In this document: piece by piece, positions 4,110-17,960 of the stretch
Layout of the letters: every line of letters starts with the position of its first letter
Numbering within the stretch: position 1 is the stretch's first letter
NCBI RefSeq assembly: GCF_003712105.1
Contig: NZ_RHLG01000005.1
Span: forward strand, 186,001-250,000
From: Winogradskyella sp.
GTDB lineage: Bacteria; Bacteroidota; Bacteroidia; Flavobacteriales; Flavobacteriaceae
DNA length: 64,000 nucleotides
Direction of reading: 5' to 3'
Position numbers and translations under genes: made by a program
Notes under the pieces: generated by a model
Told to the model about the DNA's origin: nothing
Database searches by the model: none
What the model saw: only the letters and a program-made list of their open reading frames with translations

Positions 4110-4904
4110 ATGCAACGCTTACAGTATCTTTTGTTTTTTATATCAATCTTTGGCTACACACAAAATAACATTAGCCTGCACATTGAAGATTCGCTAAAAA
4201 TTTCGGCAGACAAAGTTTTTGGCGTTGATACCTTTGGCACGCTTTATTACTCAGATAATAATCAAAGTTTTTATAAAAAAACGGCAGACACTACTATTAG
4301 TTATGCCAATTTTCAATTAGGAAAAATCACGTCAGCTAATACATTTAATCCGTTAAAAATAAACCTATTTTATCAGGATTTTAATACTGTTGTCATATTA
4401 GACAATCGTCTTGCGGAAGTATTTAAAATTGATTTTAATACAATTCAAGATTATAAAAACGTATCACTTGTATCTACTGGTTACGATAATACCATATGGT
4501 TGTTTAATCAAGATTTACAGCAGTTAGAATTGTTTGACTATAGGGATAATTCTACTCGGGTAAGAACAGTTCCAATTCAATCTCAGATATTAGATTTAAA
4601 AAGCGATTACAATTATTGCTATTTACTTACAGAGGCGTATTTATATGTCTATAATTACTTTGGAAGCCTAATTAGAAAAATTGAAAATCAAGGCTTTTCA
4701 GAAATGGCATTTAGTAAAGCAAATTTGGTTCTAAAGCGCGATAATGGTGATAAAAGCGAGTTGTTTTTACTTAAAAAAAATAGCGATCAAATTGTAGCAG
4801 TAAAAAGTAGCGATTTGTTAATAAATCAGTTTTTGGTAACGAATGAAACCTTGTATATTTACAACGACGAAAAGCTACGTCGCTACCAACTAAAATTTCA
4901 ATAG
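4110..4904 (+). CDS. Exported beta-rich protein, function unknown
   Basis: 264 residues beginning with a hydrophobic stretch (MQRLQYLLFFISIFGYTQ) that looks like a signal peptide. The rest alternates short beta-strand-like segments (VFGVDTFGTLYYSD, VVILDNRLAEVFKID, LQQLELFDYRDNS, LYVYNYFGSLIRKI), suggesting a beta-propeller, perhaps with degenerate repeats. I do not recognise a named family. The stop lies 3 nt before the deoxynucleoside kinase, so the two genes are probably co-transcribed, though no functional link is evident. A TACTTTTC box at 4094-4101 resembles a -7 element with one mismatch. Confidence 0.72.
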   Translation: MQRLQYLLFFISIFGYTQNNISLHIEDSLKISADKVFGVDTFGTLYYSDNNQSFYKKTADTTISYANFQLGKITSANTFNPLKINLFYQDFNTVVILDNRLAEVFKIDFNTIQDYKNVSLVSTGYDNTIWLFNQDLQQLELFDYRDNSTRVRTVPIQSQILDLKSDYNYCYLLTEAYLYVYNYFGSLIRKIENQGFSEMAFSKANLVLKRDNGDKSELFLLKKNSDQIVAVKSSDLLINQFLVTNETLYIYNDEKLRRYQLKFQ

Positions 4905-4907
4905 ATT

Positions 4908-5522
4908 ATGCATGTTGCTATTGCCGGAAACATTGGCGCAGGGAAAACTACGCTCACAAAATTACTAGCAAAACACTACAAGTGGGAAGCTCAACTCGAA
5001 GATGTAGTTGACAATCCTTACTTAGATGATTTTTACAATCAGATGGAGCGCTGGAGTTTTAACCTACAAGTCTATTTTTTAAATAGTCGTTTTCGTCAAG
5101 TAAATCAAATTCAGCAAAGCGGGAAAGATATAATTCAAGATAGAACTATCTATGAAGACGCATTTATATTCGCTCCAAACTTACATGCTATGGGCTTGAT
5201 GACTAATCGTGATTTTGAAAATTATTCTTCACTTTTTGAGTTGATGGAATCATTTGTAAAAGGCCCAGATTTGCTAATTTACTTACGCAGTTCTATTCCT
5301 AATCTAGTTGCACAAATCCACAAAAGAGGTCGCGATTATGAAAACTCAATAAGTATCGATTACCTAAGTAGACTTAACGAACGTTATGAGGCTTGGATAA
5401 CCAAGTATACTAAAGGAAATCTTCTTATAATAGATGTAGACAACTTAGATTTTGTTGCAAATCCAGAGGATTTAGGTGGTATTATTAATAAGATTGATGC
5501 TGAAATTCACGGTCTATTTTAG
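4908..5522 (+). CDS. Deoxynucleoside kinase
   Basis: 204 residues of the dCK/dGK family: ATP-dependent 5'-phosphorylation of deoxynucleosides in the cytosolic salvage pathway. The P-loop is GNIGAGKTT (residues 7-15). The catalytic acidic region is LEDVVDNPYLDDFY (E31), the ERW substrate-site motif follows at 47-49, and DRTIYED (78-84) is the family's DRS-type motif. A lid with IHKRGRDYE lies near residue 145. Length is typical for the bacterial enzymes. It is a lone kinase, not a tandem pair as in some Gram-positives. Which deoxynucleoside is preferred cannot be told from sequence alone. Confidence 0.9.
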   Translation: MHVAIAGNIGAGKTTLTKLLAKHYKWEAQLEDVVDNPYLDDFYNQMERWSFNLQVYFLNSRFRQVNQIQQSGKDIIQDRTIYEDAFIFAPNLHAMGLMTNRDFENYSSLFELMESFVKGPDLLIYLRSSIPNLVAQIHKRGRDYENSISIDYLSRLNERYEAWITKYTKGNLLIIDVDNLDFVANPEDLGGIINKIDAEIHGLF

Positions 5523-5604
5523 ATTGCACTTCCTAGTTCTGTAAACTCTGTCCTTCTTTTTCGTCAAAAGATTGTAACTTTAGTAATCAACTAAAATCAA
5601 TCTT

Positions 5605-7218
5605 ATGTCCAAAAAAATTGAAATTGCCAAGGTTTCAAATCTAAAAGACAAACAACCTACTTACGCCTTAGTTAACAACACAGATTTAGTAATTATTAAA
5701 CATGAAAAGGGTATTTCTGTACTCTATGGTAGATGTCATCATCGTGGTGCATTATTATCTGATGGGCATATTGATGGTAAAAACCTAATATGTGGAGTTC
5801 ATGGCTGGGATTATCGTTACGATACAGGAATTAGTGAATATAATAATGATGAACAACTACATAAATTTCAAGAGTATATTGAAGGTGACGCAATTTTAAT
5901 AGATGAATCTGAAGTCAAAGCTTTCGAAATAAAACATCCACAACCATTTAATCGCGAAGATTATCTTGGCACTTATGCAGATACACATCCAGAAGACACA
6001 GAACCTTATACTGGCTATATTAAGGAACTAGCTAAAAATGGTTTAAAAAACATTGGACATCATGGTTTTTCTGCATCAATGGGTGTTGACAGAAACACTT
6101 TACCAAAATGGGCAGATATTCAATTTTTACCAGCGCAATTAGCTACACGACCATTATTAGATCATGAGGACGTTGCTACCAAAGTAATAATAGGACCTAA
6201 TGCAAAGAAACCTCTTGAATTAGACATCCCCATTTTTGTTAGTGATATGAGTTTTGGTGCTCTGTCTCGTGAGGCCAAAATTGCATTAAGTAAAGGTGCC
6301 GAAATGGCAAAAACAGGGATTTGTTCTGGTGAAGGTGGTATGTTACCACAAGAACAAGCCAATAACTCTAAATATTTTTACGAACTAGCTTCAGCACAAT
6401 TTGGTTTTTCTTGGGACAAATTAGATAATATTCAGGCGTTTCATTTTAAAGGAGGTCAAGGTGCTAAAACTGGAACTGGCGGACACTTACCTGGCAATAA
6501 AGTAAGTGCTGAAATAGCAGAAGTACGAGGCTTAAAAGAAGGTGAGGCAGCTATATCACCTGCAGCAAATCCAAACTTCCATACTGTTGATGATTTTAAA
6601 GAATTCTCTGCAAAAGTAAGAGCGCGAACCGGCGGTATTCCAATAGGTTTTAAAATTGCAGCTAGCCATATTGAGAAAGATATTCAATTTGCACTAGATG
6701 TGGGTGTAGATTATATCATACTTGATGGTCGTGGCGGCGGAACTGGTTCTGCTCCTACTATTCTAAGAGATAACATTAATGTACCTACAATTCCTGCTTT
6801 AGCTCGAGCACGAAAATATTTGGACAAGGTTGGTGCTACTGATATCACTCTAGTTATTACTGGTGGACTTCGTATTGCTGAAGATTTTGCAAAAGCGATG
6901 ATGATGGGCGCAGATGCCATTGCCGTATCAAATTCAGCATTACAAGCAATAGGTTGTTTAGGTATGAGAGCTTGTGGCACAAATAATTGTCCTGTAGGTA
7001 TAGCAACTCAAAAAGAATCTTTAAGAAGTAGATTAATTATAGACTCATCGGCGAAGCAATTGTATAATTATTTTGATGCTACAAACAATTTAATTAAGGT
7101 CATTGCAAGGTCCTGTGGTTATGACAACATTTCGAAATTTAATCAAGATGACCTATCGACCTTTGATTTTGAAATGCACAAACTTACTGGTATTAATTAC
7201 GCAGGTATTACGCCTTAA
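5605..7218 (+). CDS. Rieske [2Fe-2S] domain fused to glutamate-synthase-type FMN/3Fe-4S domain
   Basis: 537 residues. The N-terminal domain (about 5-105) is Rieske-like with C44-x-H46 (CHHRGALLSDG) and C63-x2-H66 (CGVHGWDY). From about 150 to 500 it matches the FMN-binding synthase domain of glutamate synthase (VSDMSFGALSREAKIALSKG, GGQGAKTGTGG, LDGRGGGTGSAP, VITGGLRIAEDFAKA). The 3Fe-4S pattern C451-x5-C457-x4-C462 is intact. There is no class II amidotransferase domain, so ammonia from glutamine is not made here. It may be an archaeal-type synthase or a flavoenzyme with another substrate, and the Rieske domain may supply electrons. It is the first gene of a nine-gene run; a weak -7 box TAACTTTA lies at 5575-5582. 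Confidence 0.85.
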   Translation: MSKKIEIAKVSNLKDKQPTYALVNNTDLVIIKHEKGISVLYGRCHHRGALLSDGHIDGKNLICGVHGWDYRYDTGISEYNNDEQLHKFQEYIEGDAILIDESEVKAFEIKHPQPFNREDYLGTYADTHPEDTEPYTGYIKELAKNGLKNIGHHGFSASMGVDRNTLPKWADIQFLPAQLATRPLLDHEDVATKVIIGPNAKKPLELDIPIFVSDMSFGALSREAKIALSKGAEMAKTGICSGEGGMLPQEQANNSKYFYELASAQFGFSWDKLDNIQAFHFKGGQGAKTGTGGHLPGNKVSAEIAEVRGLKEGEAAISPAANPNFHTVDDFKEFSAKVRARTGGIPIGFKIAASHIEKDIQFALDVGVDYIILDGRGGGTGSAPTILRDNINVPTIPALARARKYLDKVGATDITLVITGGLRIAEDFAKAMMMGADAIAVSNSALQAIGCLGMRACGTNNCPVGIATQKESLRSRLIIDSSAKQLYNYFDATNNLIKVIARSCGYDNISKFNQDDLSTFDFEMHKLTGINYAGITP

Positions 7219-7221
7219 AAT

Positions 7222-7968
7222 ATGATAAATACAATGCATTTGGCTGCGCAATATTTAGCGACTGCAGCTATAAGTTTTATTCTTAAAAAAAACGATGATA
7301 GTCATACAAATTTAGGATGGAGAAATCATACATTACTTACGCATCCTTTTCCTAATGGAGATGCTTTAGGTTTAAACTATGAGAATTTTTCATTAGAATG
7401 GATTACACAAAATGGAAATAAAGAACATTTTCTATTAGATGGAAAGACGCATCAAGACATTATAAGTTGGATAAGCAAAACAAGTTCAGTTTATATCGTA
7501 GAGGTTCCTTACAATTATAACCTGCATTATGACCTGCCATATGAGGAAATTAATACCGAAACACGGTTTGAATTAGCCAACCCAGAAGCGCTTAACGCAT
7601 TAATTAAACAAAGAGATGTCGCACAACGTGTAATTAGTCAAATTCTAAAGTCTAATGCATTACACAGTAGTGTCAGAATTTGGCCTCATCATTTTGATAC
7701 TGGGGCATTTACTATTGTAAACGATAAATTAGCTATTGGTATTGGCTTGGCTATACCCGATACTTTGATTGATGATTTTTATTTTTATATCAGTGGTTAT
7801 AATGGACATGATGCTGTTGCGTTAGACTTTAATGACAATACACCTCATGAAGATTATTACTCTAATGGATGGAAAGGTTTTGCTAAGCCATTAAGCGAGC
7901 TCAATGAAGAGTCTGCTATTGCATTCTGCCAAATGGCTATTGATACTTATATAAATTCGGTAAAATAA
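7222..7968 (+). CDS. Conserved-looking protein of unknown function (WPHHFD motif)
   Basis: 248 residues, no signal peptide and no clear membrane segment. The most distinctive stretch is VRIWPHHFDTGAFT near residue 155, followed by a glycine-rich IGIGLAIPDTLIDDFYFY. A WPHHFD motif is a feature I associate with the DUF5996 group, but I cannot confirm membership here. The C-terminus has YSNGWKGFAKPLSEL. The gene starts 3 nt after the Rieske/GltS fusion and its stop overlaps the antiporter start by 1 nt, so it belongs to the same transcription unit. Its His-rich motif could bind a metal, which is an inference. Confidence 0.7.
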   Translation: MINTMHLAAQYLATAAISFILKKNDDSHTNLGWRNHTLLTHPFPNGDALGLNYENFSLEWITQNGNKEHFLLDGKTHQDIISWISKTSSVYIVEVPYNYNLHYDLPYEEINTETRFELANPEALNALIKQRDVAQRVISQILKSNALHSSVRIWPHHFDTGAFTIVNDKLAIGIGLAIPDTLIDDFYFYISGYNGHDAVALDFNDNTPHEDYYSNGWKGFAKPLSELNEESAIAFCQMAIDTYINSVK

Positions 7969-9197
7969 TGTTTGAAATATTTGTAGTTATTATAGCGCTT
8001 TCTGCATTTCTAAGTTATTTAAATGCAAAATTCTTAGAGCTTCCAGAAACTATAGGAGTAATGATACTTTCTATAATAGTATCTTTATTATTTGCAGCAA
8101 GCTACTTTATAGATAAAGCATATTTTAATCAGGTTACCATTTTTGCAAGAAGTATCGATTTTAAAACGATTCTGTTCGATTTTCTATTGGGCGTTCTTCT
8201 CTTTGCAGGTGCTATTCATGTTAACCTAAAAGTGCTTTTAAAAGAAAAACTAACAGTAATCATTTATGCAACATTTGGTGTGTTAGTATCAACATTTATG
8301 ATAGGTACTATATTCTATTACGCTGCATCACTTATTGGCCTAGAGATAAGTTTTTTATACTGCTTAGTGTTTGGTGCTTTGATTTCACCCACTGACCCAG
8401 TCGCAGTTTTAGCATTGCTAAAAAAAGCAGGAGCTCCAAAACATATGGAAATAAAAATTATTGGTGAGTCATTGTTTAATGATGGTGTTGGCATAGTAGT
8501 TTTCCTTTCAATATTATCTCTTGCATCTATGATGCATGAGTTTAACATATCTCATATTTCTGCTGAGTTTGGAAAGGAAGCTGGTGGTGGATTTATAATA
8601 GGCTTTATTCTTGGTCATTTGGGAAGAGCCTGTATTAAAAGTGTAAATAAAGAAGCTATAATCGCTGTTCATATTTCGTTGGCTATTGTACTTGGCGGAT
8701 ATATATTATGTAACATGCTTCATGTATCTGGTGCAATTGCAATGGTTGTTGCAGGTCTTATTATTGGTAATAGCCTACAAACAAGTAATCTTTCAGAAGA
8801 TTTAAAAAATCATATGACTGTTTTTTGGAGAGTTTTAGATGAAATATTCAATGCAGTATTATTTGTCCTTATGGGTATTATAATGATAACATTAGATTTT
8901 AATATCTATCATCTATTATTAGGAATAGTATCGATCTTTTTAGTGATTCTATCACGATACGCAACTATACTACTATCTAATTTATTTCTTAAAAAGACGC
9001 ATAGAGCAAATAAAAATGAAGCGCTAATTTTAACTTGGGCTGGATTACGAGGTGGTATTTCTATAGCATTAGCATTATCGCTTCCTGAAGGCGAAGTAAA
9101 AGACATTATAGTTTATGCAACATATGTGGTAGTGGTCTTTTCGATTATTGCCCAAGGATTAACTGTAAAACAATTGGTCATTAAATTATTAAAATAG
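7968..9197 (+). CDS. CPA1-family Na+/H+ antiporter (NhaP type)
   Basis: 409 residues, strongly hydrophobic throughout with about 12 membrane segments. Family signatures are present: GALISPTDPVAVLALLKK and GESLFNDGVGIVVF, which carry the ion-binding Asp residues, and WAGLRGGISIALALSLP near the C-terminus with its conserved Arg. It exchanges cytoplasmic Na+ (or K+) for protons at the inner membrane. It lacks the long cytoplasmic C-terminal domain of some CPA1 members. It overlaps the preceding gene by 1 nt and precedes the ferredoxin-cyclase by 5 nt. Its place inside a redox-protein operon suggests coupling of ion balance to electron flow or cAMP, which is inferred from context only. Confidence 0.92.
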   Translation: MFEIFVVIIALSAFLSYLNAKFLELPETIGVMILSIIVSLLFAASYFIDKAYFNQVTIFARSIDFKTILFDFLLGVLLFAGAIHVNLKVLLKEKLTVIIYATFGVLVSTFMIGTIFYYAASLIGLEISFLYCLVFGALISPTDPVAVLALLKKAGAPKHMEIKIIGESLFNDGVGIVVFLSILSLASMMHEFNISHISAEFGKEAGGGFIIGFILGHLGRACIKSVNKEAIIAVHISLAIVLGGYILCNMLHVSGAIAMVVAGLIIGNSLQTSNLSEDLKNHMTVFWRVLDEIFNAVLFVLMGIIMITLDFNIYHLLLGIVSIFLVILSRYATILLSNLFLKKTHRANKNEALILTWAGLRGGISIALALSLPEGEVKDIIVYATYVVVVFSIIAQGLTVKQLVIKLLK

Positions 9198-9202
9198 AAT
9201 AC

Positions 9203-10120
9203 GTGGAACTAGCATCGCATAAAGTCAATTTATTTAAAGAAAACATCACAATTGAATGTACTTCTGAAAATACTATTTTAGAAGCAACACTAGCCAATCA
9301 TATTAACCATACACACGCTTGTGGTGGTCAAGGAAAATGCTCTACGTGTCGAGTAAGTGTTATGGAAGGCATTGAGCATTGCGGTTCAAGAAACGATATT
9401 GAACAAAAAATAGCTTCGATTTTAAACTTTCCTTCAGAAATTCGTTTGGCTTGCCAGACAAAAATAACTGGTGATATTGCCATAAGAAGAATGGTTTCTG
9501 ATAAATTAGATATGGATATTATTTCAGAGCAATTTTCTGAAGACTCCAACAGTGCTATTGGTAGTCAACAAAAAGTAACCATTGTATTTACAGATATTGT
9601 TAACTATACATCTTTTGCGGAAAGATTTCCACCTTACGATATTGTACATGTACTAAACCGATATTATCGCATAATGAACAACGTAATACAAAACCACAAC
9701 GGACTTATAAGTGATGTTGCTGGTGATGGTATTTTAGCTGTTTTTGGTATAGATGGTGATGATGAAAATTCAGTTTTATGTGCTATTAAAGCCATTGGTG
9801 AAATGAACGTAAAACTAGATTCGTTCAACAAATATTTACTTGATAATTTTAATACTAAATTTGGTATTAGAGCTGGAGTTCACTACGGAAATGTTATTGT
9901 TGGCCCTTTCGATACCGGTGCGATGAAAAAAACTGCTGTTATTGGCGATAATGTCAATTATGCCAGTAGAATAGAAACTTCAAACAAAGAATTTGACACA
10001 CAATTATTACTTTCTGAAGAAGCTTATAATCAAGTAAAAGACAGCTATCCAAATTATAACACCTACAAAACCGAATTAAAAGGAAAGACAGGAGTTTATA
10101 ATCTATATGAACTCATCTAA
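9203..10120 (+). CDS. Plant-type [2Fe-2S] ferredoxin fused to class III adenylate/guanylate cyclase
   Basis: 305 residues, GTG start. The N-terminal domain (about 8-95) has the plant-type ferredoxin pattern C40-x5-C46-x2-C49 (ACGGQGKCSTC) with the fourth ligand C84 in RLACQT. The cyclase homology domain (about 122-300) has the metal-binding Asp residues D131 (VFTDIVNYTSF) and D175 (AGDGILAVFG). It also has KKTAVIGDNVNYASRIE, which carries the base-recognition Asp and the transition-state Asn/Arg pair, so it should be catalytically competent. It converts ATP (or GTP) to the cyclic nucleotide, possibly under redox control by the cluster. No membrane segment is present. It sits 5 nt after the antiporter gene. 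Confidence 0.9.
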   Translation: MELASHKVNLFKENITIECTSENTILEATLANHINHTHACGGQGKCSTCRVSVMEGIEHCGSRNDIEQKIASILNFPSEIRLACQTKITGDIAIRRMVSDKLDMDIISEQFSEDSNSAIGSQQKVTIVFTDIVNYTSFAERFPPYDIVHVLNRYYRIMNNVIQNHNGLISDVAGDGILAVFGIDGDDENSVLCAIKAIGEMNVKLDSFNKYLLDNFNTKFGIRAGVHYGNVIVGPFDTGAMKKTAVIGDNVNYASRIETSNKEFDTQLLLSEEAYNQVKDSYPNYNTYKTELKGKTGVYNLYELI

Positions 10121-10148
10121 CTAAAATCTATTACAACCAACAAATCAA

Positions 10149-12098
10149 ATGGAGAAAAAAATCATCTGGCATAAAGTACTAAACAACAAAAGAGAATTAC
10201 CTGAAGGTCGTGTAAAAACAGTAACTGCAGACCATAAAGGCATCTGCTTAACACATTTTAAAGGCAAGTTTTCTGCTTTAGATAATCGTTGCCCACACCA
10301 AGGTGGACCTCTAGGAGAAGGCTCAATAGAAAATGGATTATTGCGTTGCCCGTGGCATGGTTGGGATTTTGACCCTTGTACTGGCAAACCTCCTGGAGGT
10401 TATGATGATGGTATTGATACTTTTCCTATTAAAGAAGAAAATGATGCCATTTTTGTTGGTCTTGAAGAAGAAGAACCTCACGAAACCACAGTATCAGATA
10501 TCATGGCAGAAACCATGATAAATTGGGGCGTTACTAAAGTTTTTGGTATGGTTGGGCATTCCAACTTAGGATTTGCAGATGCTATGAGACGACAAGAAGA
10601 AAAAGGAAATCTTAACTTTTATGGTATTCGTCACGAAGGTGCAGCAGCTTTTGCAGCTTCAGCTTATGGAAAGTTAACTGGTAAACCAGCAGCATGTTTT
10701 TCAATTGCTGGTCCAGGAGCAACTAACATGTATACTGGTCTTTGGGATGCTAAAGTAGATAGAGCTCCTATTTTGGCCTTAACTGGTCAAGTGAAGACAC
10801 AAGTGGTTGGCACAGGAAATTTTCAAGAGGTTGATTTAGTACAAGGATTTAATACTGTTGCAGAATTTAATCAGCGTGTACAACGTGATAGTCGTCACGC
10901 TGAGTTAATGTCTTTAGCAGTTAAACATGCTATTTTAAAACGTGATGTTTCTCATTTAACGTTTCCAGATGAAGTTCAAGAACAAAAGGCAAAACCACAT
11001 GTTAAAGCCAAAGGTCCTAAAAACAGGATTACAACCTTAGATATTGCGCCTCCAAAAGAAGCTGTAAATGATGCTATAGAACTTATTAAAAAATCTAAGC
11101 GACCAGTAATTATAATGGGTCATGGTGCACGAGCTCATAAAAAGGCCGTGGTTAAATTTGCTGAAAGTCTAAATGCAGCAGTAGTAACAACATTTAAGGG
11201 TAAAGGGCTTATTGCAGATAATCACCCACTTGGTGGTGGCGTTTTAGGACGAAGCGGAACACCAATTGCTTCTTGGTTTATGAACGAAAGTGATTTGCTT
11301 ATTGTATTCGGAGCTTCTTTTTCGAATCATACAGGAATTACACCTAAAAAGCCTATTATTCAAGTTGATTTTGACCCATTAGCATTGAGCAAATTTCATC
11401 AGGTAGAAGTAGCTGTTTGGGGAGAAATATCAAGAACATTAGAAATTTTTGAAACTGAATTAAATGGCAAATCCCAATCTATAGACCAACGCGATGAAAT
11501 TGCAGAACGTTGGCATATTTGGAAAACCGAAAAAGCAAAACGTCTATTAGAAACTTCTGATACAGGTATCAGCTCTATTGCTGTATTTGACACCATGAAC
11601 AAACTTACTCCTGATAATGCAGTAATGTGTGTTGATGTTGGTAATAATGCTTACTCATTTGGCCGCTATTTTGAACCTACAAATCAAGATTTCTTAATGT
11701 CTGGGTATTTAGGCTCTATTGGTTTTGCCTTACCTGCTGCCATTGGAGCTTGGGCTGCGGTAGGAAATTCCAGACCAGTAATTGCTGTGGCTGGTGATGG
11801 TGGTTTGTGCCAATATTTGGCAGAGATTACCACACTTGTAAAGTATAATATGCCTGTTAAATTAATTGTTCTTAACAATCATGAATTAGGAAAAATATCA
11901 AAAGAACAGCGTGCTGGAGAGTTTGACGTATGGAAAACATCTTTATCTAATCCAAACTTTGCTGAATTTGCTGAATCTTGCGGTGCTTGGGGAAAACGTG
12001 TAGACAAACAAGAAGATTTAGAAGCTGCAATGAAAGAGCTGTACGAGCAACCAAAAGCCGGAGTATTAGAAATTATAACTGATGTTAACTTAATATAA
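10149..12098 (+). CDS. Rieske [2Fe-2S] domain fused to pyruvate-oxidase-like ThDP enzyme
   Basis: 649 residues. The Rieske domain occupies about 5-105, with C48-x-H50 in CPHQGGPLGEG and C67-x2-H70 in CPWHGWDF. A full ThDP-dependent enzyme of the POX/acetolactate synthase fold follows. E163 in RHEGAAAFAAS is the likely cofactor-activating Glu of the Pyr domain, a central domain runs about 300-450, and the ThDP/Mg motif starts at G549-D550-G551 and ends N576-N577. Such enzymes decarboxylate 2-oxo acids. Relatives are usually 550-600 residues without any Fe-S domain, so the Rieske domain may take electrons from the ThDP intermediate. The substrate is unknown. The next gene begins 1 nt after the stop. 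Confidence 0.88.
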   Translation: MEKKIIWHKVLNNKRELPEGRVKTVTADHKGICLTHFKGKFSALDNRCPHQGGPLGEGSIENGLLRCPWHGWDFDPCTGKPPGGYDDGIDTFPIKEENDAIFVGLEEEEPHETTVSDIMAETMINWGVTKVFGMVGHSNLGFADAMRRQEEKGNLNFYGIRHEGAAAFAASAYGKLTGKPAACFSIAGPGATNMYTGLWDAKVDRAPILALTGQVKTQVVGTGNFQEVDLVQGFNTVAEFNQRVQRDSRHAELMSLAVKHAILKRDVSHLTFPDEVQEQKAKPHVKAKGPKNRITTLDIAPPKEAVNDAIELIKKSKRPVIIMGHGARAHKKAVVKFAESLNAAVVTTFKGKGLIADNHPLGGGVLGRSGTPIASWFMNESDLLIVFGASFSNHTGITPKKPIIQVDFDPLALSKFHQVEVAVWGEISRTLEIFETELNGKSQSIDQRDEIAERWHIWKTEKAKRLLETSDTGISSIAVFDTMNKLTPDNAVMCVDVGNNAYSFGRYFEPTNQDFLMSGYLGSIGFALPAAIGAWAAVGNSRPVIAVAGDGGLCQYLAEITTLVKYNMPVKLIVLNNHELGKISKEQRAGEFDVWKTSLSNPNFAEFAESCGAWGKRVDKQEDLEAAMKELYEQPKAGVLEIITDVNLI

Positions 12099-12099
12099 A

Positions 12100-12309
12100 A
12101 TGGAAACTGTTATCAATATTTTTTTAACCTTTTTAGGAGTTTACTTTTTAATTGGGATTCTCTTTGGAATATTCTTTCTTTTTAAAGCTCCAAAGATTGA
12201 CCCTTTAATGGCAGATAGTAAAAAGAAAGTACGTTTTCTTTTGTTTCCTGGAGTGATTGCCACTTGGCCATTTTTAATTGGCAAATTGTTTAAATCTAAA
12301 ACTGCATAA
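12100..12309 (+). CDS. Small membrane protein of unknown function
   Basis: 69 residues. One strong membrane helix (about 5-29, NIFLTFLGVYFLIGILFGIFF) is followed by a short polar linker with KAPKIDPL and KKKVRF. A second, shorter hydrophobic segment (about 46-62, LLFPGVIATWPFLIGKLF) then leads to a basic tail. I recognise no family. It lies 1 nt after the Rieske-ThDP gene and 2 nt before the next gene, so it is part of the tight sub-operon 10149-14540. It could be an accessory subunit anchoring the complex to the membrane, which is inference. Confidence 0.65.
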   Translation: METVINIFLTFLGVYFLIGILFGIFFLFKAPKIDPLMADSKKKVRFLLFPGVIATWPFLIGKLFKSKTA

Positions 12310-12311
12310 CT

Positions 12312-12713
12312 ATGACATCTGGACAAAGAAAAGCACATAAGATTATCTGGCTAGCATTAGTTGTTGTTATTCCAGTTTTTATGTTTTTTTCAATTAAAGG
12401 TTTAAATTTTGACCAAGCTAGAACTTCGACATTAGCTGAAATTGAAGAATCTAAAAGCACTATTTTAAAAGCAACTGAAAACGACCTTATTAAGACTAAT
12501 TTATACAAAAGTCATATGGAAGTAATTCTAAAAGCTCCTTTGAAAACTGCTTCTGCGATAGTTTATGAAGTAGATACAGAAGGAAAAAGAGGAAAATTGC
12601 TAGGACAGTTGAAGGCCGTAGGCATTTATAAATTCAATATTACAGATTTACCAAACGGTATTTTGGTATATGACAAATTAAAAGATATAGAAATCACCAA
12701 ACTTAAATTTTAA
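12312..12713 (+). CDS. Membrane-anchored protein of unknown function
   Basis: 133 residues with a single N-terminal membrane helix (about 10-29, KIIWLALVVVIPVFMFFSI). The remainder is a soluble domain probably facing the periplasm, with beta-strand-like segments (SAIVYEVDTEGKRG, KLLGQLKAVGIYKFNI, DIEITKLKF). There are no Cys residues and no recognised motif. It starts 2 nt after the 69-residue membrane protein and its stop overlaps the start of the ferric-reductase/Rieske gene by 1 nt. This suggests translational coupling and perhaps a shared complex. Confidence 0.65.
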   Translation: MTSGQRKAHKIIWLALVVVIPVFMFFSIKGLNFDQARTSTLAEIEESKSTILKATENDLIKTNLYKSHMEVILKAPLKTASAIVYEVDTEGKRGKLLGQLKAVGIYKFNITDLPNGILVYDKLKDIEITKLKF

Positions 12714-13741
12714 TGGCATTAGATTATAAACTGGTAATTTGGAATTCATTTAAAAAGCAATACGATAAGCTTATTGTAGCAGGCATGTTACTTTATATCA
12801 TTGTATTCGCAGTACTTACTTTCGTTTTTAATTCCGAAACAAGTGTAGAAACGCTTATAATAAGAGCATTTGGTTCTTTGGCCATAATCATGTTACATAT
12901 TGTTTTGGTAATTGGTCCTTTAAGCAGGCTAAACGAGAAGTTTCTACCTATTTTATACAATCGAAGACACTTAGGAGTTAGTATGTTTTTGGCAGCTTTT
13001 ATACATGGCGGATTTTCAATGTTTCAGTTTCATGCTTTGGGAGATGTAAACCCTATTTATTCTGTGTTCACATCTAATATGGACTATAACTCATTAAGCA
13101 ATTTTCCATTTCAGGTTTTAGGTTTTTTGGCATTGCTTATTTTGTTTGCAATGGCCGCTACAAGTCATGATTTCTTTTTATCGAATCTTTCTGCTAAAGT
13201 CTGGAAGCGCCTACACATGATGGTGTATTTAGCTTATGCTTTAATTATAGCTCATGTCTTCTTAGGTGCTTTTCAACAAGAAGCATCTCTGTTTTCTGTA
13301 AGTCTGATGGCTCTAGGGTTTATAACAATAAGTAGTTTGCATCTTAGGGCAGCATTTAAAGAACGTAAAATTGATAGAGCAAAAACTATTGTTGAAGAAG
13401 GCTGGTTAGAAGTTTGTTCTATTGATGATATTGAAGAAGATAGAGCAAAGATATTTACTGTAAACAAAGAACGTGTCGCTATTTTTAAATACGATGGAAA
13501 GCTATCAGCAATACATAATGTTTGTAAGCATCAAGGCGGTCCTTTAGGCGAAGGAAAAATTATTGATGGTTGCGTTACTTGTCCATGGCATGGCTATCAA
13601 TATTTACCTCATAACGGGCAATCACCACCACCTTTTACAGAAAAAGTAGCTACATATCAATTAAAACTGAAAAACGACATTGTTTATATTAATCCCGAGG
13701 CTCTTGCTGAAGGTACCGAAGTTAAACCCGTAGATATTTAA
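12713..13741 (+). CDS. Ferric-reductase-like heme membrane domain fused to C-terminal Rieske domain
   Basis: 342 residues. About six membrane helices form an FRD/MsrQ-like domain (20-215). Candidate heme ligands are H86 and H98 (RRHLGVSMFLAAFIHGG) together with H168 and H181 (KRLHMMVYLAYALIIAH). The C-terminal cytosolic domain (about 228-335) is Rieske-like with C271-x-H273 (CKHQGGPLGEG) and C290-x2-H293 (CPWHGYQY). The Rieske motif is nearly identical to that of the ThDP fusion two genes upstream, suggesting shared origin or partner. A b-type heme plus a [2Fe-2S] cluster could carry electrons across or along the inner membrane. It lacks the usual FAD/NAD domain of ferric reductases. It overlaps the preceding gene by 1 nt. 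Confidence 0.82.
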   Translation: MALDYKLVIWNSFKKQYDKLIVAGMLLYIIVFAVLTFVFNSETSVETLIIRAFGSLAIIMLHIVLVIGPLSRLNEKFLPILYNRRHLGVSMFLAAFIHGGFSMFQFHALGDVNPIYSVFTSNMDYNSLSNFPFQVLGFLALLILFAMAATSHDFFLSNLSAKVWKRLHMMVYLAYALIIAHVFLGAFQQEASLFSVSLMALGFITISSLHLRAAFKERKIDRAKTIVEEGWLEVCSIDDIEEDRAKIFTVNKERVAIFKYDGKLSAIHNVCKHQGGPLGEGKIIDGCVTCPWHGYQYLPHNGQSPPPFTEKVATYQLKLKNDIVYINPEALAEGTEVKPVDI

Positions 13742-13742
13742 A

Positions 13743-14540
13743 ATGGAAGATAGAGAATTTTACGTACCATATATTGAAGGAAGTCTTGGCTCCAAAACCA
13801 AACGTGTTTTAAAACGTTTTACAATTATCGCTATTGGTCTTATTATTATTGCTGCTGTAGTGTTTAGTTTGGTTCAAAGACCTTTTAAAAATAGCACCTT
13901 CGAACTTACAAGTACTACTAAAATTACAGGAACATTTCATGAAAGTCCTTATCCAATGCTGCGCGTTAAAGTAGCAGACAATAGCTATAAAAATATTTTA
14001 CTACTCGGTTTTGGTAAATCTAGCGCGAATCCTTTTTTAGAAAAGTTATTGGCTGAAGTACCTCATCTTAATGGTAGAAGACTAACAATTGAAGGTAATT
14101 TAATTTACTACAACGGAAAAACCTTATTACAGATTACTGATGAAGAAAAAGTAATTCTCGAAAATCAGAAAGGTAATACGCCTGTTAAAACTGCTTTAGC
14201 TGAAATGACATTACAAGGAGAGATTATTGACCCTAAGTGCTATTTTGGTGTAATGAAACCTGGTTATGGAAAAATTCATCGTAGTTGTGCTGTACGCTGT
14301 ATATCTGGTGGTATTCCTCCGGTATTAGCAACAACAGATGACAATAATATTTCAGAATACTATTTGCTCACAGATTTAAACGGAAATGCAATTAACAAAG
14401 ATGTCTTACCTTATGTAGGTCAACCATCCGAAATGAAAGGTACGGTTGAAATAATGGAAGATTGGTATATTTTAAAGTTAGATATTGAAAACTTGACGGT
14501 TATTAGTGAAGCATCAAACATTTACTCTACTGACATATAA
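13743..14540 (+). CDS. Membrane-anchored protein with C-x15-C-x3-C motif, function unknown
   Basis: 265 residues. One membrane helix (about 25-45, RFTIIAIGLIIIAAVVFSLV) is followed by a periplasmic region with two similar beta-rich parts, each resembling an OB-like fold (ITGTFHESPYPMLRVKV and LQGEIIDPKCYFGVMK). The striking stretch at 160-193 has C166, C182 and C186 (DPKCYFGVMKPG, HRSCAVRCISGGIPP). It looks like a metal, cluster or heme site but is not a CxxCH motif. I recognise no named family. It is the last gene of the nine-gene run, 1 nt after the heme/Rieske gene. Its stop region overlaps the convergent App1 gene by 14 nt. Confidence 0.75.
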   Translation: MEDREFYVPYIEGSLGSKTKRVLKRFTIIAIGLIIIAAVVFSLVQRPFKNSTFELTSTTKITGTFHESPYPMLRVKVADNSYKNILLLGFGKSSANPFLEKLLAEVPHLNGRRLTIEGNLIYYNGKTLLQITDEEKVILENQKGNTPVKTALAEMTLQGEIIDPKCYFGVMKPGYGKIHRSCAVRCISGGIPPVLATTDDNNISEYYLLTDLNGNAINKDVLPYVGQPSEMKGTVEIMEDWYILKLDIENLTVISEASNIYSTDI

Positions 14541-15507
14541 AGTCGTTTTCTCTAGCATGAATATGAGCTTCTTCGCTACTCTCAACAATCAGCATAGGCA
14601 GCTTTGTAAAGTGTTTGAATAAGTTTTGTATTCGCTTCATCCGTTTTTTATGATTGACACTTCGAAGATATATTGCTAGTATTCGATTAGGGTATTTTTC
14701 AACGACATCCAAATAGATATCTGCGTCTTTTTCACCACAATCACCAATTAAAATGAAGTTTAAATCAGGATAAGTTTCTAATATATTATAAACTTCGTTG
14801 TACTTATGAGCTAGTTCTAGTTTGGGTGTTTTATCAAAAGGTGTGCGTAAATCTCTCAGTAAAATTGGGCCTTTAGGAAAATGATTGGTCTTCAAAAATA
14901 GCTCTAAGTATCTATACAAATTCCATGGACTATTGCTTACATAAAAAATCGGGTTTTTACCATTGTGTAGTAGCTCGTAAAACTTAGCGGTGCCTTCAAG
15001 AGCTTTTCGCTTTAGCGGAGTTTTAAAGAACGTGTTTACTATTACCTTCCATTTTAACCTTGAAGTAACACCGGTGTGTAGTATCGTGTCGTCTATATCA
15101 CTTATTACTCCAAAATTAGCCGTAGTAGATGGGATAAGCATTTGGCCACTAAAGCAATTGTCTTGCTGAATTTGTCGTTTTAGTAATTGCGTTTCGTATT
15201 TAACATTATAATCTAGCCAGCCTTGTTCATTAGATGGCAATTTAAGTTGAGTTTCAGAATTATATTGGTAATATCCTTCCGCATCAGTCTTCAAATCAAT
15301 CAATTCTCCACTGCACTCAACCTTTAAAGCTGTATTTCGAATCTCATCTGTTTCAAAACGTTTCCATGTGTTAACTAAAAGGCTTGTCCATTTTTTCTTT
15401 GATAAGTCAATGTCTTCGTCCTCCAAAGCACGACCTCTCAATGACAACTTATTTTTTGTGCCATAAGACAAAAAAGGAATAATTTGTAATGGATCTTTTT
15501 TTAGCAT
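14527..15507 (-). CDS. App1-family phosphatase (DUF2183, phosphatidate phosphatase-like)
   Basis: 326 residues. The C-terminal half is an HAD-type phosphatase of the App1 family, with the nucleophile motif D137-I-D139-D140-T141 in FGVISDIDDTILHTG. Ser/Asn appear in IFYVSNSPWNLYRYL, and the acidic motif is in NFILIGDCGEKDADIY. The yeast homologue dephosphorylates phosphatidate. The N-terminal 130 residues form a beta-rich domain common in bacterial members. No signal peptide. It converges with the Rieske operon, the two 3' ends overlapping by 14 nt. The actual bacterial substrate is not established. Confidence 0.85.
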   Translation of the reverse strand: MLKKDPLQIIPFLSYGTKNKLSLRGRALEDEDIDLSKKKWTSLLVNTWKRFETDEIRNTALKVECSGELIDLKTDAEGYYQYNSETQLKLPSNEQGWLDYNVKYETQLLKRQIQQDNCFSGQMLIPSTTANFGVISDIDDTILHTGVTSRLKWKVIVNTFFKTPLKRKALEGTAKFYELLHNGKNPIFYVSNSPWNLYRYLELFLKTNHFPKGPILLRDLRTPFDKTPKLELAHKYNEVYNILETYPDLNFILIGDCGEKDADIYLDVVEKYPNRILAIYLRSVNHKKRMKRIQNLFKHFTKLPMLIVESSEEAHIHARENDFICQ

Positions 15508-15520
15508 TGTTCAAAAATAA

Positions 15521-15560
15521 AAAAACCACACTTCCTTATGTAAAAGAAAGTGTGGTTTTT
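15521..15560. terminator. Bidirectional hairpin with T/A tails
   Basis: Perfect 13-bp arms AAAAACCACACTT (15521-15533) and AAGTGTGGTTTTT (15548-15560) with a 14-nt loop. It lies between the start of the App1 gene and the end of the membrane pyrophosphatase gene, so it would end transcription of the latter on the - strand. Confidence 0.8.
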
Positions 15561-15578
15561 AGTTAAAAAGAAGAGTTA

Positions 15579-17960
15579 CTATTTAGTAATCTCTACTTTC
15601 TTTATTTTACTTTTTGAATATACTTTAGTTGATTCAAAAGCTTTAAGTTTTGTTTCAACCTCAGATTTTGTTCCAGTAATCACTTTTTCTCTTACAACTT
15701 CTTCACCATTTTCACTTGTTGTATATGTAATTGTTGCTGTAGCTAAATCTCCTGCTTCAACAGTCATTTCAATTGTAACTTCATCCTCTAATTGTGCATA
15801 ACCTTCCTCTGTATGACCACCTAAAATTGGAGCAATAACTAATCCTACTAAACACGTCAATTTAATTAATATGTTCATGGATGGACCAGATGTGTCTTTA
15901 AAAGGATCTCCAACAGTATCACCAGTAACAGCAGCTTTGTGCGCATCAGAACCTTTTTTCTCAATCTTACCGTTTACCATAGCTCCAGCTTCGAAAGATT
16001 TCTTAGCATTGTCCCAAGCGCCTCCAGCGTTATTTTGGAAAATTGCCCACATTACACCAGACACACATACACCTGCCATATAACCACCTAATGGTTCTGC
16101 TCCAAATATTAATCCAATCACAATTGGTGTAACAATTGTTATTAATCCTGGCAATAACATTTCTTTTAAAGAAGCCTTAGTAGATATCTCAACACACTTA
16201 TCGTATTCAGGCTTTCCAGTACCTTCCATGATACCAGGAATGTCTTTAAACTGACGACGCACTTCTTTTACCATTTCCATTGCAGCTTTACCAACCGATT
16301 TCATTGCTAATGCAGAGAATACTACTGGAATCATTCCACCAACGAAAAGTGCAGCTAATACATCTGCCTTAAAAATATTAATACCATCAATACCTGTAAA
16401 TGTAACAAAGGCAGCAAATAATGCTAATGCTGTTAATGCCGCAGAAGCAATTGCAAAACCTTTACCAACAGCAGCAGTAGTATTACCAACTGAATCTAAT
16501 ATATCTGTACGTTCACGAACTTCCTCAGGTAATTCTGCCATTTCAGCAACTCCACCTGCGTTATCAGCAATAGGCCCAAAAGCATCAATTGCTAACTGCA
16601 TTGCAGTAGTAGCCATCATTGCTGATGCCGCTAATGCAACACCATAAAAACCTGCCAATTCATAAGAACCATAAATTGCAGCAGCAAAAAGTAATACAGA
16701 AGCAGCTGTACTTTTCATACCTACTGCTAAACCAGCGATAATGTTAGTTGCAGCTCCAGTACCAGAATTTTCAACAATATCATTTACTGGTGCTTTTCCT
16801 AGACTTGTATAGTAAGCCGTAACCCATGAAATTAATCCACCAACAGCTAAACCAATTAAAGCACTCCAGAATACATTTGTAGAACTAATTGTTTTTGCAC
16901 CTTCGCCAAAGAAATTCATAGACATTTCTGCTGGTAACATCCAATCGATTAAGAACCAACTTGCAATTAATGTAATAATGATTGCAACCCAATTACCTGT
17001 ATCTAAAGCCTTTTGAACTTGAGATTCTTTAGCTTCGTTATTTTTTATACTTACTAATAGTGTACCTAATATTGAAGCGATAATTCCAACACCAGCAATA
17101 ACTAATGGTAAAAGAATTGGTCCCATACCATCGAAAGCTTCTGACACTTGACCAGCAGCACGCATATCTCTAAGTACATAATTACCTAATACCATAGATG
17201 CCAATACTGTAGCTACGTAAGACCCGAATAAGTCAGCACCCATACCTGCAACATCACCTACATTATCACCTACGTTATCTGCAATTGTAGCTGGGTTACG
17301 TGGATCATCCTCAGGAATACCAGCTTCAACCTTTCCTACTAAATCAGCACCAACATCAGCTGCTTTAGTGTATATTCCACCACCAACACGTGCAAATAAT
17401 GCAATAGATTCAGCACCTAAAGAAAAACCTGCAAGTGCTTCTAAAACTACCGTCATATTATCGTAAAAAGAACCTTCACCAGTCATATACATATTAAGGA
17501 AAAGTATAAAGAAGATACTTAAACCTAATACAGCCAAACTAGCTACACCCATTCCCATTACTGTACCACCACCAAAAGACACTTTTAATGCCTTAGGTAA
17601 GCTTGTTCTTGCAGCCTGAGTCGTACGCGCATTAGCATCAGTAGCGATGCGCATACCAATATTCCCTGCAAGCGCACTAAAGATAGCACCAACAATAAAC
17701 GCTAGTATAATGATATACTCGGTAGAAGGTACTAAATAGGCCACTACTCCTAATAGTATACTAGCTACTATTACAAATACTAGAAGTAATCGATACTCAG
17801 CACTTAAAAATGCGAGCGCTCCTTCTTTAATACTTGCTGAAAGCTCTTGCATGCGTTCGTTTCCTGAGTCTTGTTTTCTAACCCAAGCATACTTAGCTCC
17901 CATAAAGATTAGACCAATAATTGCCAATATAGCTGGCACGTATAGAATGTATTGTTCCAT
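15579..17960 (-). CDS. hppA: Membrane-bound ion-translocating pyrophosphatase, K+-dependent type
   Basis: 793 residues with about 16 membrane helices. The catalytic region [19 protein letters not shown] followed by [20 protein letters not shown] (about 202-240) is diagnostic of M-PPases, which couple PPi hydrolysis to H+ and/or Na+ export. In the [15 protein letters not shown] segment the Ala after GNTT marks the K+-dependent class; independent enzymes have Lys there. Whether it pumps Na+, H+ or both cannot be settled by eye. After the last helix ([10 protein letters not shown]) there is an unusual charged, beta-rich tail of about 70 residues ([20 protein letters not shown] to the C-terminus). 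A soluble PPase gene lies directly upstream; each has its own promoter. Confidence 0.95.

Follow-up and report, generated by a model that had tools for sequence, protein, structure and literature searches.

The E. coli MsrPQ system (YedYZ) consists of a heme-b protein of the ferric reductase domain (FRD) type, MsrQ, and an extracytoplasmic partner, MsrP, encoded beside it; in the passages of PMC11031084 that concern it, MsrQ carries cytosolic electrons to a periplasmic partner. Two other described groups come close: a Rieske-containing FRD model, M4 (Zhang et al. 2013, PMC3591440), and flavinylation-associated systems, in which, in the part of PMC8238504 devoted to them, an MsrQ-like protein lies in an extracytosolic electron-transfer gene cluster. 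In this study, nine adjacent genes (g1-g9, positions 5605-14540) were analysed within a 64,000-nucleotide stretch (the window) of the 3.15 Mb genome of Winogradskyella sp. (contig NZ_RHLG01000005.1). The locus consists of three layers: (i) a core, g6-g9, which is a conserved four-gene cassette built around an MsrQ/YedZ-like protein with a fused Rieske domain (g8), (ii) frequent partners, g1, g2, g3 and g5, and (iii) a rare add-on, g4.

The cassette shares with MsrPQ a heme-b FRD protein with the R/H/H/H pattern and a putative extracytoplasmic partner (g9) encoded beside it, but it differs in the Rieske domain fused to g8, in the partner, which is a tandem-OB protein with a C/H/C/C site, and in two extra small genes, g6 and g7. 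Across an open reading frame (ORF) set covering 101 loci, E. coli MsrP had no match at E<=1e-3. M4 combines an FRD with a Rieske domain, as g8 does; its legend in PMC3591440 also lists an FMN domain, and M4 may therefore differ from g8 in architecture (perhaps three domains against two), while the passages concerned give neither gene context nor a partner. As in the flavinylation-associated systems, the MsrQ-like protein lies here in a gene cluster, but a search of 13 genomes for FMN_bind (ApbE was not included) found no such gene near g8. FMN_bind was present in 9 of these genomes, on another contig than the cassette in 6 and on the cassette's contig only in G191, G330 and G000, each time more than 100 kb away. 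NADPH oxidases (NOX) and long-form FRD proteins have fused FAD and NAD(P)H domains, both of which are missing from g8, where only Ferric_reduct and Rieske-type families were detected (Pfam). Because there is no MsrP, no FAD/NAD domain and no FMN_bind gene nearby, plain MsrPQ and NOX are excluded, and so is a flavinylation cluster as far as tested. The cassette is filed here as a variant of MsrQ-type transmembrane electron transfer, and g9 could make it more than that. No description of it was found in the open-access literature; subscription papers were mostly outside the scope of this search, and Rieske and glutamate synthase were not queried as a pair.

The conserved cassette g6-g9

The four core genes of the window are as follows.
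g6, 12100-12309, + strand: 69-aa membrane protein with two hydrophobic stretches, no Pfam or NCBIfam family
g7, 12312-12713, + strand: 133-aa protein with one N-terminal hydrophobic stretch, no Pfam family and a single NCBIfam match far under that model's cut-off
g8, 12713-13741, + strand: MsrQ/YedZ-like heme-b membrane domain (Ferric_reduct) with a C-terminal Rieske domain (Pfam)
g9, 13743-14540, + strand: one transmembrane helix and two OB-like barrels with C166/H179/C182/C186, no Pfam or NCBIfam family

Relatives of the cassette were collected by searching an 84,980-species genome collection with a g8 alignment. The named loci are the best 80 of at least 587 confirmed relatives among at least 592 pattern matches (some of these relatives may match through the Rieske domain alone) and, being the best-scoring ones, they are biased toward close relatives. 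They comprise 30 loci of Flavobacteriaceae, 40 of other Bacteroidota (including one of Balneolaceae) and 10 non-Bacteroidota loci, i.e. 8 Acidobacteriota contigs, one KSB1 and one Kiritimatiellae metagenome-assembled genome (MAG); this grouping was made by hand on the basis of the titles of the records, in which a MAG may be misnamed. Two loci (L102 and L126) come from the same MAG, and three (L079, L105 and L113) duplicate genomes G314, G321 and G046 of the genome sets. Flanks of up to 10 kb per side were fetched, giving 52 of the 80 loci a length of at least 20 kb.

Profile searches of these loci detected g6 in 75, g7 in 77, g9 in 77 and g8, by construction of the search, in all 80, with all four genes present in 70/80. 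The profiles were trained on the very loci counted, and a held-out check, in which each match had to lie near g8, was made for g6, g7 and g9 only. In 67/80 loci the four genes follow one another as g6-g7-g8-g9 on the g8 strand (12100-14540 in the window): 27/30 of Flavobacteriaceae, 33/40 of other Bacteroidota and 7/10 of the non-Bacteroidota. Held-out profiles trained on Flavobacteriaceae recovered g6 and g9 beside g8 in 10/10 non-Bacteroidota loci and g7 in 4/10 (E<=1e-3); a g7 profile trained on all Bacteroidota recovered it in 9/10, the tenth having an E of 0.0014. No g9 was found in 3/80 loci (L085, L095 and L130), and the contig of L095 stops just past g8. Beyond these loci, g8 and g9 are encoded on five plasmids of Rhizobium; the three of them examined with profiles have g6 and g7 as well, so that carriers of the core include Bacteroidota, Acidobacteriota, KSB1, a Kiritimatiellae MAG and Rhizobium plasmids. 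On the strength of these order and presence counts, the held-out profiles and the Rhizobium plasmids, g6-g9 is a conserved four-gene cassette. A ThDP (thiamine diphosphate enzyme) gene lying beside the Rhizobium cassette was detected by the ThDP profile but rejected as a partner (about 25% identity to g5, no Rieske motif).

The residues R84, H98, H168 and H181 of g8 align with R77, H91, H151 and H164 of E. coli MsrQ and are invariant (84/84), while the Rieske motif is present in all 80 g8 proteins. This R/H/H/H pattern is the YedZ/STEAP signature as described in the relevant passages of PMC3591440. The alignment thus supports the assignment to g8 of residues suited to a transmembrane electron conduit. 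In locus L112 (an Acidobacteria record) a second, weak match to the g8 profile (60.5 bits) lies downstream of the core at 12832-13986.

All 77 g9 proteins of the 80-locus set have the C/H/C/C motif. The structure model of g9 shows a single long helix at the N-terminus together with two barrels, and it places this site in the second OB barrel. Short proteins corresponding to the second barrel region only were also seen (L190:9664-10044 and L191:~9715-10104); they retain C/H/C/C, have a hydrophobic N-terminus and match no Pfam or NCBIfam family. A tblastn search of plasmids for this stand-alone domain found nothing. A separate phylum set of 296 genomes was also searched: 25 passed the g8 threshold, of which 10 were kept (the match includes the heme domain) and 15 dropped (mainly the Rieske part). 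In this set g9 was found in 12 genomes, the 10 with g8 and two with a short match only.

Partner genes and the Winogradskyella site

Upstream of the core the window contains five further genes.
g1, 5605-7218, + strand: Rieske domain with a Glu_synthase FMN/[3Fe-4S] domain, no amidotransferase domain (Pfam); frequent partner, Rieske-GltS
g2, 7222-7968, + strand: 248-aa protein, no family at Pfam E<=0.01 nor in NCBIfam; frequent partner
g3, 7968-9197, + strand: CPA1-like Na+/H+ antiporter, Na_H_Exchanger (Pfam, NCBIfam); frequent partner
g4, 9203-10120, GTG start, + strand: plant-type [2Fe-2S] ferredoxin (Fer2) with a class III Guanylate_cyc domain (Pfam); rare add-on
g5, 10149-12098, + strand: Rieske domain with pyruvate-oxidase-like TPP_enzyme N, M and C domains (Pfam); frequent partner, Rieske-ThDP

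An earlier, sequence-only reading of this DNA had described nine genes on one strand with three Rieske domains, one plant-type ferredoxin and four unrecognised proteins. The re-derived ORFs agree exactly with it, including the intergenic gaps (3, -1, 5, 28, 1, 2, -1 and 1 nt), and the domains are borne out by Pfam and by intact cluster motifs, C-x-H/C-x2-H in g1, g5 and g8 and C-x5-C-x2-C...C in g4; g2, g6, g7 and g9 are indeed without a Pfam family at E<=0.01. Beyond that list, g1 carries a [3Fe-4S]-type C-x5-C-x4-C motif. The nine genes are flanked at the 5' side by a gene at 4908-5522, which we take to be deoxynucleoside-kinase-like and call dnk, and at the 3' side by a convergent APP1_cat phosphatase gene (14527-15507). 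No match to a strict consensus of Bacteroidota promoters was present on the + strand in 4801-15600.

In its Glu_synthase FMN domain and [3Fe-4S] cysteine motif g1 resembles the alpha/large subunit of glutamate synthase, but it has an N-terminal Rieske domain instead of the glutamine amidotransferase domain. Likewise, g5 shares three TPP-enzyme domains with pyruvate oxidase and, among PDB sequences, matches E. coli PoxB (3eya) best, from which it differs by its N-terminal Rieske domain. The best NCBIfam model for g5, pyruvate oxidase PRK08611, gave 414.6 bits against a cut-off of 742, and none of the 25 models shown reached its own cut-off. The similarity of the g5 and g8 Rieske motifs pointed out in the sequence-only reading is real; with 37% identity over 91 residues, the two domains belong to one subfamily, and a recent duplication was considered and rejected. 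The Rieske motifs of g8, GltS and ThDP are without the additional cysteines found in bc1-type proteins; this points to a low-potential type. In g2, H6, Q10, D26, W154-P-H-H157, D159 and D180 are invariant, and its structure model has a mean confidence (pLDDT) of 92.9.

Among the 80 loci, GltS was found in 35, ThDP in 38, the antiporter in 25 and g2 in 25 (profiles), and, where the locus measured 20 kb or more, at least one partner was present in 37/52. The cluster motifs are kept in these partners: 38/38 ThDP proteins have the Rieske motif, and 34/35 GltS proteins have both the Rieske and the [3Fe-4S] motifs. GltS or ThDP occurred in the fetched flanks of 28/30 Flavobacteriaceae, 14/40 other Bacteroidota and 2/10 non-Bacteroidota loci, one of the last two being a 287-aa GltS frame without cluster motifs. 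In the 296-genome set g8 was found in 10 genomes, Rieske-ThDP in 8 and Rieske-GltS in 37, with shared genomes for g8 and ThDP (5), g8 and GltS (9) and ThDP and GltS (7); the corresponding Fisher p values, which take no account of kinship, were 7e-7, 3e-8 and 2e-6. Pairwise, the three genes co-occur more often than expected by chance.

The partners also meet away from the core. ThDP and GltS lie close together without g8 in genomes G306, G312, G313, G337, G349 and G088. In haloarchaea, plasmids of Halorarius and Salinirubellus have a gene for a Rieske-ThDP a few kb from a GltS-related gene (in Halorarius with a Na+/H+ antiporter between the two), and on a Halorubrum plasmid the distance is about 17 kb. 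The stretch read around the Rieske-ThDP gene of a Haloferax larsenii plasmid contained neither a GltS-related gene nor an antiporter, and that of Mycobacteroides contained the antiporter as the only partner. In G088, a genome of the same family, the Rieske-ThDP gene next to GltS (C2:445177-447120) is interrupted by one TGA stop (a pseudogene or a sequencing error).

Within a genus set of 68 genomes, g8 is present in 2, ThDP in 7 and GltS in 18, strictly nested. The site itself was followed through dnk, for which 30 loci were obtained from 31 Winogradskyella genomes searched (one genome gave none). Within a 1.5-kb flank, the next family gene after dnk was the phosphatase in 21, GltS in 5 (including the window) and neither in 4; over a wider stretch, these four open loci had the phosphatase about 2 kb away (G226), the antiporter about 3 kb away (G306) or neither (G311 and G310). 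The nine genes occupy the site in the window and in G314 (Winogradskyella MED-G128), where genes for a YHS-domain and a LysE-like protein then follow; the same site holds GltS and g2 in G318 and G302, and GltS alone in G304. As the site thus holds nine, two, one or no genes, the parts are separable and open to stepwise loss or gain. G314 has a second Rieske-ThDP gene (C53:13989-15932, in L189), with 70% identity to g5, adjoining an antiporter and g2.

The survey therefore supports the earlier claim that these gene families travel together, also outside close relatives. A gene order not kept outside close relatives had been named there as a refutation, and this is half the case: beyond close relatives, order is conserved for g6-g7-g8-g9 only, and GltS, ThDP, the antiporter and g2 stand in many orders or are not seen. 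A single nine-part pathway, as first proposed, is not supported.

Proposed electron path and its alternatives

What has been computed is the conservation of the cassette, the co-occurrence of its partners, the heme-region and cluster residues and the predicted fold of g9; from these we infer cofactors, membrane topology, direction, docking, substrates and the roles of g6, g7 and the antiporter. We propose, giving it an even chance, that g6-g9 forms a cassette for moving electrons across the membrane, that Rieske-fused enzymes of the cytosol feed it and that g9 is its new extracytoplasmic partner. The Rieske [2Fe-2S] domain of g8 would receive electrons at the cytosolic side, relay them across b-type heme(s) bound by the MsrQ-equivalent histidines and deliver them to membrane-anchored, extracytoplasmic g9; the acceptor, or a relay, would be the C/H/C/C site of its second OB barrel. 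The small proteins g6 and g7 may be membrane subunits or assembly factors. Where present, Rieske-ThDP (oxidizing a 2-oxo acid) and the Rieske-GltS-like flavoenzyme would be cytosolic donors that dock onto g8 Rieske to Rieske; both share the [2Fe-2S] type of g8. The Na+/H+ antiporter may compensate the accompanying proton or ion change, and the cyclase g4 would be a local add-on. The electron flow first suggested for this locus is retained in so far as the families co-travel and g8 has conduit residues, and given up as a pathway of nine parts.

Several observations weigh against this proposal. Topology is drawn from the family and from hydropathy, which for g8 gives five stretches, not six; g7 is poorly conserved; and the searches made with g9 found no solved relative with known redox function. 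None of GltS, ThDP, the antiporter and g2 was seen in 33/80 loci (15 of them at least 20 kb long, the rest ended by contig ends), and the core must therefore have other donors. Conversely, 28/37 GltS genomes and 3/8 ThDP genomes of the phylum set are without g8.

The partner-free cores and the partial sites are also the main evidence for another explanation, which we regard as rather unlikely: that the core, GltS with g2, ThDP and the antiporter are separate modules of a redox/stress neighbourhood, used under the same condition with no exchange of electrons. It would account for a single Winogradskyella site with nine, two, one or no genes, for the order of partners, which varies freely around the core, and for the mixed redox and stress character of other neighbours (a glutaredoxin-reductase fusion, YHS and aquaporin-type channel proteins, peptidases, sigma factors and a short-chain dehydrogenase/reductase). 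Against separate modules, however, both partner enzymes bear a fused Rieske [2Fe-2S] domain of the same kind as g8, and the 1-nt overlaps and 1-5-nt gaps at 7/8 junctions in the window suggest co-translation.

Inward flow, with g8 taking electrons from quinol or g9 and its Rieske domain feeding Rieske-GltS (for reductive amination) and the ThDP enzyme, seems improbable. In its favour, synthases of the GltS type depend on reducing power, and g1 itself lacks a domain for binding NAD(P)H (Pfam). Against it, ThDP enzymes like pyruvate oxidase act as sources of electrons. In addition, MsrQ and NOX homologues send electrons outward in the passages of PMC11031084 that treat them. A STEAP- or NOX-like metal or oxygen reductase with a small-molecule acceptor and g9 as a scaffold is very improbable. 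The ferric-reductase superfamily membership of g8 (Pfam) and metal reduction by STEAP proteins (in the passages concerned of PMC3591440) speak for it, but g9 accompanies g8 in 77/80 loci with C/H/C/C in 77/77, which is more than a scaffold needs.

The cassette g6-g9 may, as we suggest tentatively, belong to an undescribed class of bacterial transmembrane electron-transfer machines, in which a Rieske-heme b conduit (g8 with g6 and g7) serves a new extracytoplasmic redox centre (g9) and Rieske-tagged cytosolic enzymes plug in interchangeably. As a second FRD system, one whose fixed and conserved partner is not MsrP, it would be a testable case of electron export from the cytosol. Enzymes that are otherwise unrelated repeatedly bear a Rieske tag, which suggests that electron donors follow a plug-in rule.

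The ferredoxin-cyclase and other neighbouring genes

The Guanylate_cyc domain of g4 scores 76.2 bits against a Pfam cut-off of 21.9, and the motifs FTDI (129), SDVAGDG (170) and GDNVNYASR (248), which we take to be class III cyclase residues, were located. The same pair of domains occurs in rhizobial ferredoxin-fused class III cyclases, from which g4 differs by its place in this putative operon; 386 plasmid records match g4 (159 of Rhizobium and 108 of Sinorhizobium), with at least 80% of g4 covered in 173. Ferredoxin-cyclases were found in 3/296 phylum genomes, beside g8 only in the window's own genome, and in the locus set the window shares a cyclase next to the core with Winogradskyella MED-G128 alone. 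Because this arrangement is so rare, redox control of cyclic nucleotides lies outside the conserved system, and the suggestion that the cluster redox state sets cyclic-nucleotide output is not upheld as a part of it.

In the flavobacterial loci L054, L056, L066, L071, L078, L183, L184 and L188 clustering placed a Crp-family regulator upstream of GltS (a cNMP-binding domain was seen in the L054 copy) and no g4-type cyclase. A protein with the PycTM transmembrane domain (of Pycsar effectors) recurs near these genes in L058 (8758-9381, the copy in which the domain was seen), L066, L067, L186, L192, L193 and L199.

Genes resembling those of ornithine-lipid synthesis (GNAT PF13444 with sub-cut-off OlsB matches and a PlsC-type acyltransferase) adjoin the core in L043 (by scan) and in L091, L097, L109 and L121 (by clustering). 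A second recurring gene block follows g9 in L060-L065, L068-L070, L072, L076, L082 and L114. It is composed of YHS, LysE, a 161-aa protein (DinB-like by eye), TANGO2, a 347-aa protein with weak NCBIfam matches to ATP-grasp-type enzymes and, in most cases, a 191-aa protein.

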